From: a virus
DNA length: 25,241 bases
Strand: one strand, 5' to 3'
IMG/VR virus record: IMGVR_UViG_3300032236_000044
Span: 1 to 25,241 of that record
The translations under genes and the position numbers were made by a program. The notes below the pieces were generated by a model, which was given only the letters and a program-made list of their open reading frames with translations, ran no database searches and had not been told where the DNA came from. Positions 10,296 through 24,411 of this stretch are shown here, in pieces (the first letter of the stretch is position 1; each line of letters starts with the position of its first letter).

Positions 10296-12890
10296 ATGAC
10301 TGCTCCTGCTCTAACCTCAGATCAAAATATCCTGCCTGTTCAGGCATATTTTAATATTGATGGATCGTTTAACACGTTCATAGGGCAGGGGCATCCTTTT
10401 GTTGTTTCTGCGACAGAATCAATTGGTATAAACAATGTAACAACCAATGCTACTTTTTATCCTGTTTTTAGCCCTGTTAGTAGTGGACAAGTTACTAGTT
10501 TAGATGTATTTACTGGTTTAACTTACAACCCAAGCACAGGATTATTAACTACAACAGCATTGCAAGGTAATCTTAAAGGTATTGCTGATTTAGCCACAAA
10601 TTTAGTGGGAAGTTATACAAATGCACTTGTATATCAATCAACCAACAACACAACTTCTTTTATTGCAAATGGTACAACAGGGCAATATTTAAGTGCTAAT
10701 ACTAGTGGAGCACCTACTTGGGTTACTCCCACATTTGCTGGATCAACTGTTATTGATGATACATCCACAAATGCCACAAGATACCCTTTATTTTCCTCAA
10801 TAACATCAGGAAATTTATTAACAGAATATACAAGTTCCACAAAGTATCAATTCAATCCTAATACTGGAGCATTGACAGCTACATCTTTTGTGGGTTCTGG
10901 TGCTAGTTTAACCAGTATTCCTAATGGGGCACTTGTAAATTCAAGCATTACTGTTGGCACAACTTCAATCTCATTAGGTTCTAGTTCCACAACATTGGTT
11001 GGTTTATCAAGTGTAACTTCTACCAGTTTTGTAGGAGCATTAACTGGCAATGCTAGTTCTGCAACAACAGCTACAAGTGCAACTGTTGCATTAAATGTTC
11101 AAGTAACAGATAGCACATCTAGTTCAAGCACTTTTTATCCAACTTTGTCGCCTGGAACAACTGGATCAACAAACTATGCTTTAGGCACAAGTTCTACAAA
11201 ATTGAGTTTTGTGCCAAACACAGGAACTTTAACCACAACTGCTTTGGTTTCTACTGGTGGAAGTATAGATAACACACCAATAGGTGCTACAACTGCTAGT
11301 ACAGGTAAATTCACAACCTTAGAAGCCACAGGAACATCAACTCTTGGAGATGCTTCTACTACTTATATTCAGGTGGTGGGAGATGCTTCTTATCCTGCAA
11401 TTAAAGCAGCAGGAGGAACAAATACACCTCTTGTTTTACAACCATTGGGAACAGGAGCATTACAAGCACAACAGACTACATCTACCGCTACAGGTGGTAA
11501 TGCTAGGGGTGCTAATGCGGTTGATTGGCAGACAACTAGAAGTGCAGCAAGTTATGTGGCAAGCGGAGCTAATTCTTTTTTGGGTGGTGGTATAAATAAT
11601 ATATCAAGTGGTAGTTATTCTGTTTTAGTTGGAGGAAACACGGGACAATCTACTGCTTATGGAACATTTGTTGGGGGTGGTTACGGAAATAAAGCTACAC
11701 TCAATCAATCTTCTGTTGTAGCTGGAGAAAATAATACAGCAAGTGGAATAGATTCTTTTATAGGAGCTGGTCACTTAAATTCATCAACAGGGTGGTTAGG
11801 TTTTATTGGTAGTGGCGAAGCAAATTCAACCACAGCTAATGCTTATGTAACACAACAAGCAACATCATCTGTAACATCAGGTTCAACAGCAGTCACATTA
11901 AGTGGCTCAAATGCGGCAATTAAAGTTGGTCAATTAGTTACAGGTACAGGTATTGCTAATGTTGGAAGCGCAACAAACTACACTTATGTAGCCGCCATTT
12001 CAGGAACCTCACTAACCCTATCTCAAAACGCAAGTGCATCTGGCTCACCAACCCTATCTTTCTACACACCTCATGGAGTAGTAGTAGGAGGAGGAAATAA
12101 CCAAGCAACAGGTTCCTATTCGTATGTAGGTGGAGGAGGCGATGCGGGTACTGCTGCGAATAGGAACGTAGCATCTGGAGATTGGAGTTTTGTTGGTGGT
12201 GGTTGGGGAAACCAAGCTACTGCTGTTGGTGCTGTTGTTGTTGGTGGAGGTCAAAACAACGGATTGGTTTTTGGAAATCAAGCGTCAAATACTTCTGCAT
12301 TTGTAGGCGCAGGAGTTGGTAATCAAGCAAGTGGCTCAAGAAGTTCTGTAGTTGGTGGGTATAGTAATTGGGCAAATGCTGATTATGCTGCAATTCTTGG
12401 TGGAATTTTTGGAAGCGCAAGAAGTATTATTGGAAATCAAGTTGCCGCTGCTTGTAATAACCCAATGGGTACTGGTTCATTAGGAACACAACAATTTGCT
12501 TTATTAATATTAGCTCGTCAAACCACAGATGCAACCGCCACAGTTCTTACAAGTAATACATCTGCCGCATCAGGTACAAACCAAGTAATCCTACCAAACA
12601 ACTCAGCATATTCATTTAGAGCAACCATAATTGGTGGAGTTACTGGGGCAGGAAATACGGCATCTTGGATTCTTCAAGGTGCAATCAAACGTGGTTCTGG
12701 AGTTGGAACAACTGCAATAGTTGGAGCAGTAAACTCAATACTATTAGCTCAAGACTCAGGTGCATCTACTTGGGCAGTTTCAGCTACCGCAGATACAACC
12801 AATGGTGGTTTATCAATTACAGTTACTGGACAAGCCTCAACTACAATTAGATGGGTTTGCAAGGTAGAGACAACAGAAATGACATACTAA
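10296..12890 (+). CDS. long tail fibre with YadA-like repeats
   Basis: This is an 864-residue fibre. Residues about 35-340 hold three copies of a 45-residue shaft repeat with cores LTYNPSTGLLTTT, YQFNPNTGALTAT and LSFVPNTGTLTTT. From RGANAVDWQ (about 404) to about 712 there are repeats of the form S-x-(V/I)-GGG-x-x-N-x-A-x-G (GGGYGNKATLNQSSVVAGENN and similar), as in the left-handed beta-rolls of YadA-type trimeric adhesins. Residues about 523-590 are an inserted GTGI-type domain (see 11862-12065). The last 150 residues (ILPNNSAYSFRATIIGG, GGLSITVTGQASTTIRWV) form a C-terminal domain frequent in aquatic phage fibres. A trimeric receptor-binding role is likely. The ATG directly follows the previous stop without a clear RBS, implying coupled translation. 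Confidence 0.85.
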   Translation: MTAPALTSDQNILPVQAYFNIDGSFNTFIGQGHPFVVSATESIGINNVTTNATFYPVFSPVSSGQVTSLDVFTGLTYNPSTGLLTTTALQGNLKGIADLATNLVGSYTNALVYQSTNNTTSFIANGTTGQYLSANTSGAPTWVTPTFAGSTVIDDTSTNATRYPLFSSITSGNLLTEYTSSTKYQFNPNTGALTATSFVGSGASLTSIPNGALVNSSITVGTTSISLGSSSTTLVGLSSVTSTSFVGALTGNASSATTATSATVALNVQVTDSTSSSSTFYPTLSPGTTGSTNYALGTSSTKLSFVPNTGTLTTTALVSTGGSIDNTPIGATTASTGKFTTLEATGTSTLGDASTTYIQVVGDASYPAIKAAGGTNTPLVLQPLGTGALQAQQTTSTATGGNARGANAVDWQTTRSAASYVASGANSFLGGGINNISSGSYSVLVGGNTGQSTAYGTFVGGGYGNKATLNQSSVVAGENNTASGIDSFIGAGHLNSSTGWLGFIGSGEANSTTANAYVTQQATSSVTSGSTAVTLSGSNAAIKVGQLVTGTGIANVGSATNYTYVAAISGTSLTLSQNASASGSPTLSFYTPHGVVVGGGNNQATGSYSYVGGGGDAGTAANRNVASGDWSFVGGGWGNQATAVGAVVVGGGQNNGLVFGNQASNTSAFVGAGVGNQASGSRSSVVGGYSNWANADYAAILGGIFGSARSIIGNQVAAACNNPMGTGSLGTQQFALLILARQTTDATATVLTSNTSAASGTNQVILPNNSAYSFRATIIGGVTGAGNTASWILQGAIKRGSGVGTTAIVGAVNSILLAQDSGASTWAVSATADTTNGGLSITVTGQASTTIRWVCKVETTEMTY
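11862..12065 (+). other. GTGI-type beta domain inserted in the long fibre
   Basis: Residues about 523-590 of the fibre (SGSTAVTLSG, KVGQLVTGTGIA, VAAISGTSLTLSQNASASG) interrupt the YadA-like GGG repeats, which resume at GVVVGGGNNQATG. The same kind of domain splits the gp4-like protein (17317-17529). Confidence 0.6.
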
Positions 12891-17091: not shown

Positions 17092-18069
17092 ATGACTACA
17101 CCTAATGACATTATTAGCAGAGCATTAAAGGATATTGGTGCTTTAGAGGCTGGTGAAACTCCAACTGCTGAAGCATCTCAGGATGCTTTTGATATGTTGC
17201 AAGATATGTTAGATCAATGGTCTAACGAAGATATGATGGTGTTTTATAAAAATGAAATTATATTTCCAATTACACCTGGTCAAACTCAATACACTATTGG
17301 GCCAGGCGGTCAAATTGGTGCAACATTTACTGGAAGTATTACTAATAATATTCTCACTATTACTAGTATCCAGTCTGGGGGCATATCTCTTGGTCAAACT
17401 CTTAGTGGAACTGGTATTACAGCAGGGACTACTATTGTTCAAATGCTCACAGGGGCGGGAAACAATGTAAATGAGGCTGGAACTTATTTATTAAATACAA
17501 CTTATGCAACTCCTATAACAAGCGAGTCAATTCGTAGTTATTATCAACGTCCATTAAGACTTAATTCTTGTTTTGTTAGAATTAATACTTATTCTAATGG
17601 TCAACCAATTACAAATGGAGGACTAGATTACCCAGTTTCAGTATTGAATATTGAACAATACGAAATGATTGGTCTTAAGACGTTAAATGGGCCTTGGCCT
17701 AAAGCTATTTATTATGAGCCAACTGAGACATTAGGTAATATTTATGTGTGGCCTAATCCAAGTCAAGGTGAGATGCACATATTTGTAGATCAATTATTTC
17801 AAAGATTTACAACCCAGTTTGATAATATCAATCTTCCACAAGGCTATAACATGGCTTTGAGATGGTGTCTAGCTGAAAGACTAATGCCTATGTATGGCAA
17901 AGCCTCACCAACACAAATTCAGATGATTATGAAGTTTGCTGCACAAGGCAAGTCTACTGTTAAGCGCACAAACATGAATCCTGCAATTGTGTCTACCTAT
18001 GCCGATTCCTTGCTTGTTGGAAGACAAAAAGATGCAGGCTGGATACTTAGTGGCGGGTTCTTCAGATGA
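17092..18069 (+). CDS. tail accessory factor, P22 gp4-like, with inserted domain
   Basis: The 325-residue protein opens like P22 gp4: IISRALKDIGALEAGETPTAEASQDAFDMLQDMLDQWSNE (7-46), then FPITPGQTQYTIGPGG (58-73). After residues 76-146, which are an extra beta domain, the family sequence resumes with RPLRLNSCFVRI (153-164), IYYEPTETLGNIYVWPNPS (206-224) and NMALRWCLAERLMPMYGK (253-270). P22 gp4 has 166 residues, so this version is about twice as long, partly from the insertion. gp4 binds the portal after packaging to close the channel and start tail assembly. The gene has RBS AAGGATA and overlaps the next ATG by four bases. Confidence 0.9.
   Translation: MTTPNDIISRALKDIGALEAGETPTAEASQDAFDMLQDMLDQWSNEDMMVFYKNEIIFPITPGQTQYTIGPGGQIGATFTGSITNNILTITSIQSGGISLGQTLSGTGITAGTTIVQMLTGAGNNVNEAGTYLLNTTYATPITSESIRSYYQRPLRLNSCFVRINTYSNGQPITNGGLDYPVSVLNIEQYEMIGLKTLNGPWPKAIYYEPTETLGNIYVWPNPSQGEMHIFVDQLFQRFTTQFDNINLPQGYNMALRWCLAERLMPMYGKASPTQIQMIMKFAAQGKSTVKRTNMNPAIVSTYADSLLVGRQKDAGWILSGGFFR
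17317..17529 (+). other. GTGI-type beta domain inserted in the gp4-like protein
   Basis: Residues 76-146 (TFTGSITNNILTITSIQSGG, GQTLSGTGITAGTTI, NEAGTYLLNTTYA) lie between YTIGPGG and RPLRLNS, which are adjacent in shorter members of the family. A related domain is found in the long fibre (11862-12065). Confidence 0.65.
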
Positions 18070-19553
18070 GCGATTTTGGCTTTGTTGGCCCATCTTACGA
18101 AGCTGCATCCATTTATCAGGAAGCGCAAGAGTGCATCAATTTTTATCCTGAAATTGATCCTGAAATTGATCCTTTAAAACCTCCCGGAAGTCGAGGTGTA
18201 GTTGCTTTGTATCCAACGCCAGGACTTACATCTATTTTGTCTTTAAACCCAGCTCCAATAAGAGGGATGAGGACACTTTCTGGAGGTAAATATCTAATTG
18301 TTGTTGCTGGTGCAATTGTGTATTCAGTTACCTATTCATCTGCATTAGGCTATCAATCCACACAAATTGGGTCATTAACTACCACAACTGGTCAAGTATC
18401 TATTACTGATAATGTAACCACAAATTTAGGATTAGTTGCTTATATTGTTGATGGAACAAATAGATATTATTGGCAAACAGGACAAGCATCATTGGTTATG
18501 TTGCCATCAACAGATGGGCCATGGCAAGGAGCAAACATTTGTGATGTTGTGGATAATTATATTATTTACAATCAACCAAATACACAACTTTGGGCAGCAA
18601 CAGACCTGGGGTTAGTTACATCCAATAATGCTTATTACGGCTCTAAAGATGGCGCTCCTGACCCGCTTGTTTCACTTATAGTAGATCATAGACAAGTATT
18701 TTTGCTTGGTGAATTTACTTCGGAAATGTGGACAGATGTAGGAAATGTAATACCTGGCATTATTAGTTTCCCTTTCCAAAGGGTTACAGGAACATCTGTA
18801 CAGCATGGCATTGCAGCGCCTTTTTCGGTAGCAAGATTTGGTGAGCAATTTGCGTTTGTTAGCCAAGATCAACTAGGTCAAAACATTATTGGTGTAATGC
18901 AGGGCTATTCTTTTAAAAGAATAAGTACCCATGCTGTAGAACAAACTTTAATGAACCAATACATAGCAGATGCTATTGCTTATACATATCAGCTCGATGG
19001 TCATGAATTTTATGTGGTTACATTTCCAACTATTAATATTACATGGGTTTACGATTTAACTACAGAAATGTGGCATAAATGGTTGGCTTGGGATGGAACA
19101 CAATTTAATAGACATAGATCAAATTGTGGTGCATTTTTTAACAATGTTTATTTGGTTGGAGATTATCAAAATGGTCAAATCTACCAATTAGATAATGCTG
19201 TTTATACTGATGCAGGAAATACTATTAGAAGGCTCAGGAGAGCACCACATTTGGTAACTGATTTGCAAAGACAGTATTTTGCTGAATTACAGATACAGTT
19301 TCAGCCTGGTGTGGGGTTAGAAAATGGTCAAGGAAAAAATCCACAGGCTATGCTGAGATGGTCAAATGATGGCGGTTCTACCTATTCCAATGAGCATTGG
19401 TGTACTATTGGTGCGGTTGGGAAATACAGGAATCGTGCCATTTGGAGAAGACTTGGTACGGCTAGGGACAGAATTTATGAGGTTAGCATCAGCGATCCAG
19501 TTAAAGCGGTGATAGTGAGCGCCAACCTTAAAGCAGAAGTGGGTGAAAACTAA
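18066..19553 (+). CDS. packaged-DNA stabilisation protein, P22 gp10-like
   Basis: The 495-residue protein (P22 gp10: 472) starts with the family pattern GPSYEAASIYQEAQECINFYPEID and GVVALYPTPGLTSIL, then RGMRTLSGGKYLIVVAG. It continues with beta-propeller-like blocks (YWQTGQASLVMLPSTDGPW, SLIVDHRQVFLLGEFTSEMW, GISFPFQRVTGTSVQHGIAA and following). A recognisable C-terminal part is LRRAPHLVTDLQRQYFAELQIQFQPGVG with ARDRIYEVSISDPVKAVI. gp10 sits below gp4 and keeps packaged DNA in the head. The ATGA overlap with the gp4-like gene fits stoichiometric production. A 12-bp in-frame tandem repeat near the N-terminus gives PEIDPEIDP. Confidence 0.92.
   Translation: MSDFGFVGPSYEAASIYQEAQECINFYPEIDPEIDPLKPPGSRGVVALYPTPGLTSILSLNPAPIRGMRTLSGGKYLIVVAGAIVYSVTYSSALGYQSTQIGSLTTTTGQVSITDNVTTNLGLVAYIVDGTNRYYWQTGQASLVMLPSTDGPWQGANICDVVDNYIIYNQPNTQLWAATDLGLVTSNNAYYGSKDGAPDPLVSLIVDHRQVFLLGEFTSEMWTDVGNVIPGIISFPFQRVTGTSVQHGIAAPFSVARFGEQFAFVSQDQLGQNIIGVMQGYSFKRISTHAVEQTLMNQYIADAIAYTYQLDGHEFYVVTFPTINITWVYDLTTEMWHKWLAWDGTQFNRHRSNCGAFFNNVYLVGDYQNGQIYQLDNAVYTDAGNTIRRLRRAPHLVTDLQRQYFAELQIQFQPGVGLENGQGKNPQAMLRWSNDGGSTYSNEHWCTIGAVGKYRNRAIWRRLGTARDRIYEVSISDPVKAVIVSANLKAEVGEN
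18147..18170 (+). repeat. 12-bp tandem duplication within the gp10-like gene
   Basis: Two identical copies of CCTGAAATTGAT stand in tandem and in frame, encoding PEID twice. It looks like a recent slippage duplication. Confidence 0.85.
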
Positions 19554-20950: not shown

Positions 20951-22252
20951 ATGGCTATTCAATCATTCCAAGCACCTACAACTACACCAGTTAAAGGCAC
21001 ATCTTTAGCAGAGATGATGCAGATGGCGCAGTCTGCTCAAGCATTGCAACAGGCTAGACAATTAAATCCTGTACAACTTCAACAAGCAGAACAGGCATTA
21101 GAACAGGCAAAAATTGGAACTGAAAAAGCTAAAAGAACACTAGAGCCAGAAGTATCTAAATCAGAATCTGAGGCCAAAAGACTTAAATTGGTTGCAGAAC
21201 AAACTGGTGTTGATGTTACAAATCATTATGCGAACATTGCTCGTGGAGTTTATGGCGGTCTGCTGACTGATCCAGACTTTCAAAAAGGCGATGCAAAGAA
21301 AATGGTAGAAAAGCTAGATAAAGCAAAAGTGTTTTTAGAAGATGTTGGTATTCCAATGCACGATTCTAAAATGCACGACTCTTTAATCCAAGCAGCCAAA
21401 AGCAATCCAAAAGAAGCGTATCAGTTAATTAAAAATGGCGTACAACAAGCGGGTACAAATGCCGAGCAGTTTGGTCAAGTCAATGCACCTGCGACATATG
21501 TCAATACTGGTCAAATGCAAGTGCCTATTTATCAGTCACCATATCAAGGTGGTGGGCCAGGAAATACTCCTGCAATTCAAAATCAATTGCCACCATCAAC
21601 TCCAACAATAAGTCCAACTGGACAACCTGGTTATCTTGGCGCACAGGGGCAAAAAGGATTTGTGCCTAGTCAATTACCTCCAAACGCAGGAGTTGGTGCA
21701 GAAGATTTAAAACAAGTATTTTCTGATGCACAAACAGCGCAAAACAGAATTGGTTTATTGCAAAACATTAAAGACTTGGCAAATAAATCATTTACTGGTG
21801 TTGGCGGTTCAAGAAAAGAATTTGTTACCGGCATAGCAAATGCAATTGGAGTGCCTGTGTTTGAAATTGAAAAAGCTAACACAGATGTATTGGCTAAAAA
21901 TTCTGCACTTCTTTCACTTGCTGGTGGTAATACCGATTTAGCAAGACAACTTGCTGAAGCTGCAAATCCAAATAAGAAAATGAATGTTGAGGCAATTAAA
22001 GAAGCATCTAATCAATTAATTGCACAAGAAAGATTAAAACAGAAAAAAGCTGAATTTTTACAACCTTTTGCAAATGACCCATTAACATTACAACAAAAAT
22101 CATTAGAATTTGCAAAAATAGCTGATCCTAGATTGTTACAAGAAATGACCCCAGAACAAGTCAAATCTTTAAAACAATCTATGAGTCCTGATGAACGTAA
22201 AGAGTTTGCACAAAAACTAGCAGAAGCTAGAAGATTAGGATTGGTTAAATAA
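20951..22252 (+). CDS. internal virion / DNA-ejection protein (gp20-like position)
   Basis: This 433-residue protein is read from ATG 20951, three bases after the previous stop with RBS AAGGA. An ATG at 20927 in the same frame lacks an RBS and overlaps the upstream gene. Residues 15-75 are a Gln/Ala/Glu-rich coiled coil (LQQARQLNPVQLQQAEQALE and on). A helical region (residues 85-165) follows, then a Pro/Gly/Gln-rich linker (190-255) and a helical C-terminal domain with GVGGSRKEFVTGIANAIGVP and TDLARQLAEAANP. Helical, Gln-rich proteins of this size in this place are ejection proteins in P22-like phages. The position matches gp20 (471 residues), but clear sequence homology cannot be asserted by eye. 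Confidence 0.75.
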   Translation: MAIQSFQAPTTTPVKGTSLAEMMQMAQSAQALQQARQLNPVQLQQAEQALEQAKIGTEKAKRTLEPEVSKSESEAKRLKLVAEQTGVDVTNHYANIARGVYGGLLTDPDFQKGDAKKMVEKLDKAKVFLEDVGIPMHDSKMHDSLIQAAKSNPKEAYQLIKNGVQQAGTNAEQFGQVNAPATYVNTGQMQVPIYQSPYQGGGPGNTPAIQNQLPPSTPTISPTGQPGYLGAQGQKGFVPSQLPPNAGVGAEDLKQVFSDAQTAQNRIGLLQNIKDLANKSFTGVGGSRKEFVTGIANAIGVPVFEIEKANTDVLAKNSALLSLAGGNTDLARQLAEAANPNKKMNVEAIKEASNQLIAQERLKQKKAEFLQPFANDPLTLQQKSLEFAKIADPRLLQEMTPEQVKSLKQSMSPDERKEFAQKLAEARRLGLVK

Positions 22253-24411
22253 TGCCTACATTAGCAGAACTTTGGGATGCTTCAGATACTGGTCTTAAAG
22301 GCGATTTAAATGATCGTCTTGAACAAGCCAAAGAAGCCTATCGTAAGCAATATAACAAAGAGTTGCCTGTTACAAGTGGTTTTCGTACCTATGAACAACA
22401 AGCTGCTCTAGCATCAAAGCCTAATAAATATCCTGTTGCTAAACCAGGCACAAGCGCCCACGAAACTGGTGATGCAGTAGATATTGACTCAAGTGTTCCA
22501 ACAGACTTTCTTAAACAGTTTGGTTTGCATAGACCTATTGCCAATGATGCGGTTCACGTTCAAGTTATGCCAAGTGCCAAGGGGACACAATCATTGGCTA
22601 GTCTTTGGGATCAAATTGACGTTGGTGAGGAACAACCTAAAAAACAACAACAAGAGAAATCTTTATTGCAACGTGCTTTTGAGGAAAGACAAAAAGCTCG
22701 GGATGTATTAACAGGAGTTGGAGAAGCTGGTCTTGCTGCAGCTTCAGGCATGGTTATGCCTTTGGTTGCTGGAGCAAAAGGAATTGTGCAAAGTATCCCC
22801 GAGGCTATTCAAACAAGTCAAGCGCCTGCGCCAATAGCAGAAAAGATTGCATCTAAGTTTTTAGCAGAGCATCCAGGCTATCAACCAACAACCCCACAGG
22901 GTAAAGCATATATTGAAAATATACAAAAGGCTTTTGAGGCTTCTAAACTGCCTCCTGTTATGCCAGAAATTATTGGTCAAACCCCAAATGTAAAACCTGT
23001 ATCTGCTGAAATTAATGAGGCTTTTCAAGCTGCAAAACAACTTAAAAAAGAACCAAGCACATTACCTCAAGCGCAACAATTGGCTATGCAAAATGCAGGG
23101 GCAGCGCAAACAGTTAACAAGACTGTTCTTGACCAGGCAATTGCAAGCGCAACTCCAGAATTAGCTGCAGAACTTAAAACTGTTAATCCTGCTGATTTAC
23201 ATTCGGATGCGTTAGCTAGGCATTTGGAAGCAGATTCTTTGCCAATTCCTGTACGTCTTACCAAAGGTCAAGCATTGCAAGACCCCAATATTATTTCTAG
23301 GGAGCGTAATGAGCGTGGCGTTAAAGAACAATATGTAGAACACTTTAATCAGCAAAACAAAGATTTAATGGCTAATGCTCAAGCTATTAAAGAACGCACA
23401 GCTCCCAATGTATTTACTACTGATTACGTTGATGATGCGGGAAATGCTATTGGTTTTGTAAATGACATTAAGAAAAACAATGTTGAAGCCACAAAAACTG
23501 CTTACAAAGATTTAGAAGCACTAGGTGGTGGAAAGTTTCCTATTGATGCACAAACATTTGGTAAAAATGCTTTGTCTGCATTGTCCAAGGGTGAAGAATC
23601 TGAGTTTTTGCCTGAAGTTTTTAAACGCAGAATAGATGAATATGCAAGTGGCAAAAAAGAAATGAACTTTGACAACTTTGAGAATTTGCGTACACAAATT
23701 GCCAAAGCATCAAGGGCAACAGATGATGGCAACGTGCGCCATGCGTTAAGCGTTGTTAGACAGGAATTAGAAGATATACCTATGCCTGGCGCAACTGCTG
23801 AACTTAAGATTGCAGCAGACAATGCTAGAAGTTTAGCAAAACACGATTTTGAACTAGAAAAAACTAACGATTTATATAATAAAGTTGTTAACGGCAAAGC
23901 GGATACAAAAGACTTTATACAAAACTTTGTTGTAAGGTCTAAAAATGCCGATTTTCAAAATTCACTTAATCTATTAAAAGACAATCCACAAGCCATTGAG
24001 CATTTGCGTTCTGGCACATTGGATTATTTAACTCGTGAAGCCACAGATGCAAGTGGTAATTTTTCTACTGCTAAATTCAATAAAGCTATTAACAAAATGG
24101 ATGTTGATGGCAAATTGGATGCTTTGTTTGGCGGTGATGCACAAATGTTGCGTAATCTGGTTAAAACTGGTCAATATGTAGAGGCTAGACCAAAGGGCGC
24201 ATTTGTTAACGAATCCAACACATTTGTTGCAAGCGCAAAAGCTCTTGCAGCATCAGGATTAGAAAAAGCGTTAAATGCCACAACTGCCAATGTTGTACCA
24301 ATTGGAACAATGGGCAGAGAGGCATTACAAAATCGTGCAATTAAGCAACAAACCAAAGAAGCGCTAAAACCTGGTGCTGGTGTTAAATTATCTGAAATAG
24401 GAAAGCCATGA
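22252..24411 (+). CDS. ejection protein with N-terminal M15-type peptidoglycan peptidase domain
   Basis: This is a 719-residue protein. Residues about 38-106 form a VanY/M15-like zinc peptidase: SGFRT (42-46), SAHETGDAVDID (68-79, with H70 and D77) and D99-x-x-H102 in NDAVHVQV. These match the SxHxxGxAxD and (E/D)xxH metal and catalytic motifs of D,D- or L,D-endopeptidases. LAELWD (4-9) recurs as LASLWD (115-120), flanking the enzyme. Residues about 152-182 are hydrophobic (GEAGLAAASGMVMPLVAGAKG). The rest is helical up to the C-terminus, as in P22 gp16 (609 residues). It is third in the gp7-gp20-gp16 order. A virion-borne lysin that opens the wall during DNA ejection is the best reading. The ATG overlaps the previous stop by one base. 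Confidence 0.83.
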   Translation: MPTLAELWDASDTGLKGDLNDRLEQAKEAYRKQYNKELPVTSGFRTYEQQAALASKPNKYPVAKPGTSAHETGDAVDIDSSVPTDFLKQFGLHRPIANDAVHVQVMPSAKGTQSLASLWDQIDVGEEQPKKQQQEKSLLQRAFEERQKARDVLTGVGEAGLAAASGMVMPLVAGAKGIVQSIPEAIQTSQAPAPIAEKIASKFLAEHPGYQPTTPQGKAYIENIQKAFEASKLPPVMPEIIGQTPNVKPVSAEINEAFQAAKQLKKEPSTLPQAQQLAMQNAGAAQTVNKTVLDQAIASATPELAAELKTVNPADLHSDALARHLEADSLPIPVRLTKGQALQDPNIISRERNERGVKEQYVEHFNQQNKDLMANAQAIKERTAPNVFTTDYVDDAGNAIGFVNDIKKNNVEATKTAYKDLEALGGGKFPIDAQTFGKNALSALSKGEESEFLPEVFKRRIDEYASGKKEMNFDNFENLRTQIAKASRATDDGNVRHALSVVRQELEDIPMPGATAELKIAADNARSLAKHDFELEKTNDLYNKVVNGKADTKDFIQNFVVRSKNADFQNSLNLLKDNPQAIEHLRSGTLDYLTREATDASGNFSTAKFNKAINKMDVDGKLDALFGGDAQMLRNLVKTGQYVEARPKGAFVNESNTFVASAKALAASGLEKALNATTANVVPIGTMGREALQNRAIKQQTKEALKPGAGVKLSEIGKP

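Follow-up and report, generated by a model that had tools for sequence, protein, structure and literature searches.

The window analysed here, a whole stretch of 25,241 nucleotides from a freshwater virus of bacteria, encodes a gp4-like neck protein that is interrupted by a short segment with a GTGI motif, and a segment of similar appearance lies in a long fibre-like protein of the same virus. This raises the question of what the segment is, how it came to lie in a neck protein, and what it does on the particle. We propose that it is an independently folding beta domain of about 70 residues, traded by phages between unrelated virion proteins, and that an accessory role in weak multivalent contacts is the most likely one. 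We give this reading a probability of roughly 0.6.

The adaptor gene and its inserted domain

The gene at 17092-18069 on the forward strand encodes a protein of 325 aa, which its sequence and predicted fold place among the adaptors of P22 gp4 / SU10 type, i.e., the portal-proximal head-to-tail neck ring proteins of the podovirus adaptor family. It matched phrog_12985 (238 columns) over residues 2-309 with an E-value of 3.9e-43, with approximately 80 residues in surplus, and also Pfam SU10_adaptor (PF24175; E 2e-7, 32.1 bits against a cut-off of 27). The core of its AlphaFold model overlays P22 gp4 (8u10_m) with a Z of 15.3 and an rmsd of 2.4. This overlay covers 112 residues only, without the beta part of the adaptor, and the predicted core is left intact by the insert. 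Upstream are the genes for the portal (4330), scaffold (6518), and coat (7438), and the next gene, from 18066, is that of a gp10-like hub. Farther along the window lies a big late ORF (22252-24411, 719 aa), whose N-terminus is VanY/endolysin-like over residues 20-81.

By aligning 18 gp4 proteins (the window's and 17 from the phage collection) together with six contig copies in MAFFT, the surplus was located between GPGG (residues 70-73) and RP (residues 153-154). In 14 of the 18 proteins, which are 232-275 aa long, about 4 residues occupy this site, compared with about 79 in the window. The carriers among the 18 are the window's protein, ctn9Y15, cta1H496, and Xanthomonas phage PBR31, and their inserts are of similar length. 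The absence from relatives, the AlphaFold block, and a match to a pooled profile of the domain (described below) define the insert as residues 74-152, at 17311-17547 on the forward strand. A sequence-only reading of the window had put it at 17317-17529 (residues 76-146), which is the right place, with an extent slightly too short. The translated signature LGQTLSGTGITAGTTI (residues 100-115 of the adaptor, 17389-17436, forward strand) includes several invariant alignment columns.

A core-profile survey of gp4 loci, the check that the same reading had suggested, found the insert in all 80 loci of the window lineage and in all 13 of the PBR31 lineage, and in 3 of 17 loci of the phage collection. 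The other 14 did not have it, nor did any of the 27 P26218-lineage contigs with a detected gp4 core (28 were fetched, one of them without a core match). This distribution marks the region as a true insertion that certain lineages gained and have since retained, and the proposal that an inserted domain splits the neck protein is borne out. It is highly improbable that residues 74-152 belong to a common gp4 fold and were lost by the other relatives. The shared position in the window and PBR31 lineages would agree with such a loss, but the P26218-type and most phage-collection proteins are without the insert, the best-matching adaptors in the PDB are just 146-243 residues long, and the same domain is found in unrelated proteins.

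The GC content of the insert (0.368) is the same as that of its flanks (0.369 and 0.374). In the AlphaFold model, the block of residues 71-160 is ordered (pLDDT 67-90), with predicted strands at residues 75-95, 103-105, 114-121, and 130-150. The insert is under purifying selection, yet it evolves faster than the core. Its mean amino-acid identity over 253 pairs was 0.73, compared with 0.84 for the core, and the median dN/dS values were 0.12 and 0.04, respectively; the latter are rough because synonymous change was saturated in most of the 253 pairs (unsaturated: 92 and 68).

Relationship between the adaptor insert and the fibre segment

The long fibre-like protein of the window (864 aa, 10296-12890, forward strand) gave no match in Pfam and PHROG scans. 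Its copy of the domain, which we call type B, covers residues 518-592 (11847-12071, forward strand) according to the pooled-profile match. It had been placed at 11862-12065, so the position stands and the extent is somewhat larger. GGG/NxASG-type repeats, a type judged by eye, are present on both sides of it, and its structure model is of low quality (pLDDT 52, pTM 0.30). The fibre relatives gave no support to the description of this segment as an insertion. Among 25 of them matched on both flanks, 24 carry the segment; the one exception, L015, is a truncated ORF in which the two flank matches overlap. It is thus a constant part of the fibre family within the sample at hand, a sample that is biased since most loci were fetched using segment 518-592 itself.

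The two segments are related by a real but distant likeness, as far as profiles can tell, which upholds at a distance the earlier suggestion of one domain kind in both proteins. What joins them into one superfamily is the comparison of profiles with each other, together with intermediates and the pooled profile. With hhalign, which supplied the comparison of the two segments that had been recommended, the gp4-type and fibre-type profiles matched at 88%, and none of 60 column shuffles reached the score. This match spans just 25-29 columns, which would also suit an origin of the two segments as unrelated Gly/Ser/Thr-rich beta sequences in which GQ.(L/V)(S/T)GTGI is common by chance or convergence. 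Direct profile searches point in the same direction, being insignificant at Z=1000 both when the fibre segment was searched with the gp4/gp10-type profile (E 0.056) and when gp4 was searched with the fibre profile (E 16), and iterated HMM searches never joined the gp4-type and fibre-type sets, with no common matches at E 1e-4.

We nevertheless consider an unrelated origin improbable. The PBR31-type insert, which occupies the same gp4 site as the window's and matches the window-type profile at 65-76%, reached 93% over 49 columns against the fibre profile. The pooled profile was built from 52 nonredundant copies in virion proteins other than gp4; these were picked by a DNA pattern based on the motif that the two segments share, a selection that could itself favour a match between unrelated segments. 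It nevertheless matched exactly two places in the window, both near full length, namely the gp4 insert (E 7.5e-15 with the full gp4 protein as target) and the fibre segment. The fibre segment alone gave an E-value of 1.5e-5, with 21 bits left after a correction of 18 bits for its strong composition bias, and this score was reached by none of 2000 letter shuffles. The whole fibre matched a sister profile that includes gp4 copies with an E-value of only 6.6e-4. In hhalign, the pooled profile matched the gp4-type set at 99.2% and the fibre-type set at 97.0%. In addition, two fibres of other contigs (L222:5095-7497 and L224:5095-7497) have a gp4-type GTGI copy within an apparent fibre-type copy.

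Carriers among other virion proteins

A DNA-pattern scan for the GTGI motif returned at least 120 contigs. At least 130 carrier ORFs in at least 39 clusters were collected, the clusters including nine bacterial contigs, and 30 carriers were scanned against PHROGs. Two PHROGs include the domain in their own sequences; apart from these, 19 of the 30 carriers matched a PHROG of the head, connector, or tail. The other 11 matched just the two domain-containing PHROGs, unknown-function families, or nothing. None of the 30 fell into a non-virion functional category of PHROGs. Among the 19 are major capsid proteins of two kinds, minor head proteins, cement proteins, tail sheaths, a head-tail adaptor of another PHROG, a gp10-like hub, tail fibres, baseplate-like proteins, and one internal virion protein. 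Pfam agrees for the capsid (Gp10A-like and HK97-type), cement, and DUF3383 carriers. The copies in major capsid proteins of these two Pfam families lie in L356:967-2286 (about residues 173-257) and L390:8778-10073 (about residues 94-184), and sheath proteins with one or more copies are found in L324:1889-4012, L365:2788-4761, and L369:1196-2917. Three different ORFs of a single contig have the domain in L365 and also in L378.

With copies in the shell, the sheath, the neck, and the fibres of many phages, the module has the look of an add-on of the particle that is widely traded. The idea of a mobile domain in unrelated virion proteins is supported and extends further than had been proposed, to capsid, cement, sheath, hub, and adaptor proteins.

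The carrier annotated by PHROG as an internal virion protein (L317:275-2245) is unexpected for a purely surface module, and it speaks against a function purely outside the particle. The nine bacterial contigs that match the same pattern include very long ORFs, among them ORFs of Prosthecobacter, Verrucomicrobiaceae, and Flavobacteria. GTGI-like motifs were seen in bacterial ORFs of 705-2666 aa (L420, L423, L424, L426, and L427), and the L420 ORF has passenger-associated transport repeats. Given such motifs in long bacterial ORFs, the domain probably occurs outside phages as well.

Gain, loss, and inheritance of the domain

The gp10-like head closure or hub protein next to the adaptor (495 aa, 18066-19553, forward strand; phrog_578, E 2.6e-101) has no GTGI copy in the window. 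A gp10-like ORF was present in 70 of 80 loci of relatives, and 60 full-length genes remained after 10 incomplete ones had been dropped; loci fetched with the domain itself were left out of these counts, as biased. Thirty of the 60 genes have two tandem copies, three have one copy elsewhere, and 27 have none, the last being the type found in the window. The three one-copy hubs (L001:5975-7666, L032:5975-7666, and L002:1844-3535) have it at a site unlike that of the usual tandem pair. In L001, whose gp4 is 99% identical to that of the window, the gp10 gene contains an in-frame extra of approximately 220 bp, and the DNA flanking it is 87% and 83% identical to the window. Several gp10-like hubs show a nested insertion, in which the second GTGI copy is split by a repeat-like module containing GYAVND (L043:1310-3541, L047:4475-6616, L059:1568-3805, L067:5398-7911, and L079:5975-8197).

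By comparing the copies with each other, the nearest one below 90% identity was found in the same protein of another genome for all 260 testable gp4 and gp10 copies, and in the other protein of the same genome for none of them. Therefore, there has been no recent passing of the domain between gp4 and gp10 within one phage, and the suggested shuffling within the phage is not supported. Judging by these relationships, each protein lineage instead captured the domain once or a few times and then inherited it.

Gain and loss in gp10, the nested insertions, and the faster evolution of the insert could also be read as signs of a near-neutral passenger that is spread by recombination and tolerated where it is harmless. 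We find this doubtful, given that the insert has been kept in 80/80 gp4 genes of the window lineage and 13/13 of the PBR31 lineage and that it is under purifying selection, although folding alone could produce the latter.

For the traded domain as a whole, we see about an even chance that GTGI represents a pan-virion, promiscuous and uncatalogued beta family apart from the Ig-like domains, which enters in frame the surface hairpins of nearly every class of particle protein (capsid, cement, sheath, adaptor, hub, and fibre), is gained and lost among close relatives, and nests within itself. The module, and not one host protein or another, would then be what selection acts on for contact between particle and environment. 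That virion proteins exchange small beta domains is already known. If true, a further module of this sort, so far without a name and spread over many kinds of host protein, would mean that virion annotation has a sizeable gap. The gp10 genes of L001 versus L003 or the window form natural pairs with and without the domain, in which the benefit of the add-on could be measured directly.

Predicted fold and standing in databases

Taken alone, residues 76-150 overlay the translation-factor barrels of eEFSec, SelB, IF2, and Sup35 with a Z of 6.9-7.3 and an rmsd of 2.5-2.7 over 70-75 residues; a Z of about 7 is a level that the fold-comparison tool warns is common, the advised level being 8. Homology to EF-Tu domain 2 was rejected by sequence, with hhalign giving 3-4% against 14 genuine domains. 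Because the barrel overlay is weak and a sequence relationship is lacking, we describe the insert as a predicted beta domain only.

An Ig-like domain was absent from the 50 VIA-align matches listed for residues 76-150, which excludes nothing, and a Pfam Ig match was found in none of 11 GTGI copies. No Pfam or NCBIfam model matched the domain convincingly in the proteins tested. FeoA, the Pfam candidate, appeared in one of the 11 copies with an unconvincing E-value of 0.039, and the NCBIfam candidate was a weak match to polyketide synthase (E 0.043). A PDB sequence search with the domain gave two matches at chance level (E 0.85 and 1.1). When domain copies were compared with the phage collection by tblastn, 0 to 3 records were returned, probably in part because of the BLAST low-complexity filter. 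The literature searched, mostly outside subscription journals, did not describe the GTGI domain and had the motif letters in unrelated work only. Thus, the family, its breadth, and its nesting appear to be undescribed in the searchable literature.

Proposed role of the domain on the particle

The first and last elements of the insert are predicted long strands that would probably lie side by side, so an in-frame drop into an exposed hairpin would leave the host fold undisturbed. We propose that an ancestor of this lineage gained the domain in its adaptor ring, within the beta part. According to the available text of PMC9509320, the adaptors of SU10, T7, and KP32 have a domain that docks the long tail fibres and is absent in P22 and Sf6, and the SU10 adaptor ring is a dodecamer. 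The beta part of the present adaptor is likewise missing from P22 gp4, whose overlay covers 112 residues only. Should this beta part be the counterpart of the fibre dock, the domain would face outward at the neck, and if the ring is dodecameric as in SU10, twelve copies would stand out around the neck, near the fibre docks of other phages. Most likely, the domain would serve as an accessory module that gives weak, multivalent contacts with the host surface, with surrounding polymers, or with neighbouring virion parts. The shared surface function suggested earlier for the neck and fibre copies, perhaps glycan binding, is a candidate function.

The same position would, however, allow a structural clamp or fibre dock, which in the adaptor holds a fibre or spike base or staples neighbouring subunits and in capsid, sheath, and cement proteins strengthens the particle, cell adhesion not being involved. 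The beta part around the insert probably matches the SU10/T7 fibre dock, at least as the dock is presented in the available text of PMC9509320; cement, sheath, and internal proteins are among the carriers; and additional sheath domains were proposed as stabilisers of the tail in the accessible part of PMC9230969. We regard a clamp as possible but less likely. Many adaptor relatives do without the domain, and in gp10 it has been gained and lost between genes approximately 83-87% identical in DNA, which makes it dispensable for assembly on an evolutionary time scale. We favour, by inference and analogy, the accessory contact module, with an adhesive function more likely than a structural one.

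Comparison with known systems

Fraser and colleagues reportedly found Ig-like and related domains on structural proteins of tailed phages and proposed weak carbohydrate binding for them. Like the phage Ig-like domains, the GTGI domain is small, of beta type, exchanged between diverse phages, and present on several virion protein classes. Unlike them, it has no Pfam Ig match in the 11 copies, and its weak overlays are with translation-factor barrels. The likeness to the domain 2 barrels of the EF-Tu family is itself a weak one of fold (Z 6.9-7.3 for residues 76-150), the sequences being unrelated (hhalign 3-4%).

Domain mosaicism in phages, as covered in the available text of PMC10684548, is similar in the recent shuffling within receptor-binding and neck proteins; the domains named there are Ig-like, RIFT-related, and pectin-lyase, and GTGI is not among them. 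The adaptors of T7, KP32, and SU10 resemble the present one in having a beta part besides the helix bundle, as far as the available text of PMC9509320 describes them. That text also gives SU10 accessory domains inserted in the hub protein beside the adaptor, comparable with the gp10 relatives here. The SU10 nozzle domains are described there as Ig-like and lie between propeller blades, whereas GTGI is a separate sequence family that occurs in adaptor and hub alike.

The lactococcal phages of the 936 group, as presented in the accessible part of PMC6669499, have exchangeable carbohydrate-binding modules on neck-passage and tail proteins, and two of these modules were shown to bind host cells. 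The likeness is that a single phage has exchangeable modules on both its neck and its tail proteins. The 936 neck modules, however, are placed at the ends of dedicated collar fibres, whereas the GTGI domain lies inside the adaptor ring protein and its binding is putative. By analogy, the phage Ig-like domains and the neck carbohydrate-binding modules, within what the available texts of PMC9230969 and PMC6669499 report, would provide precedents for weak adhesion by a domain of this kind.
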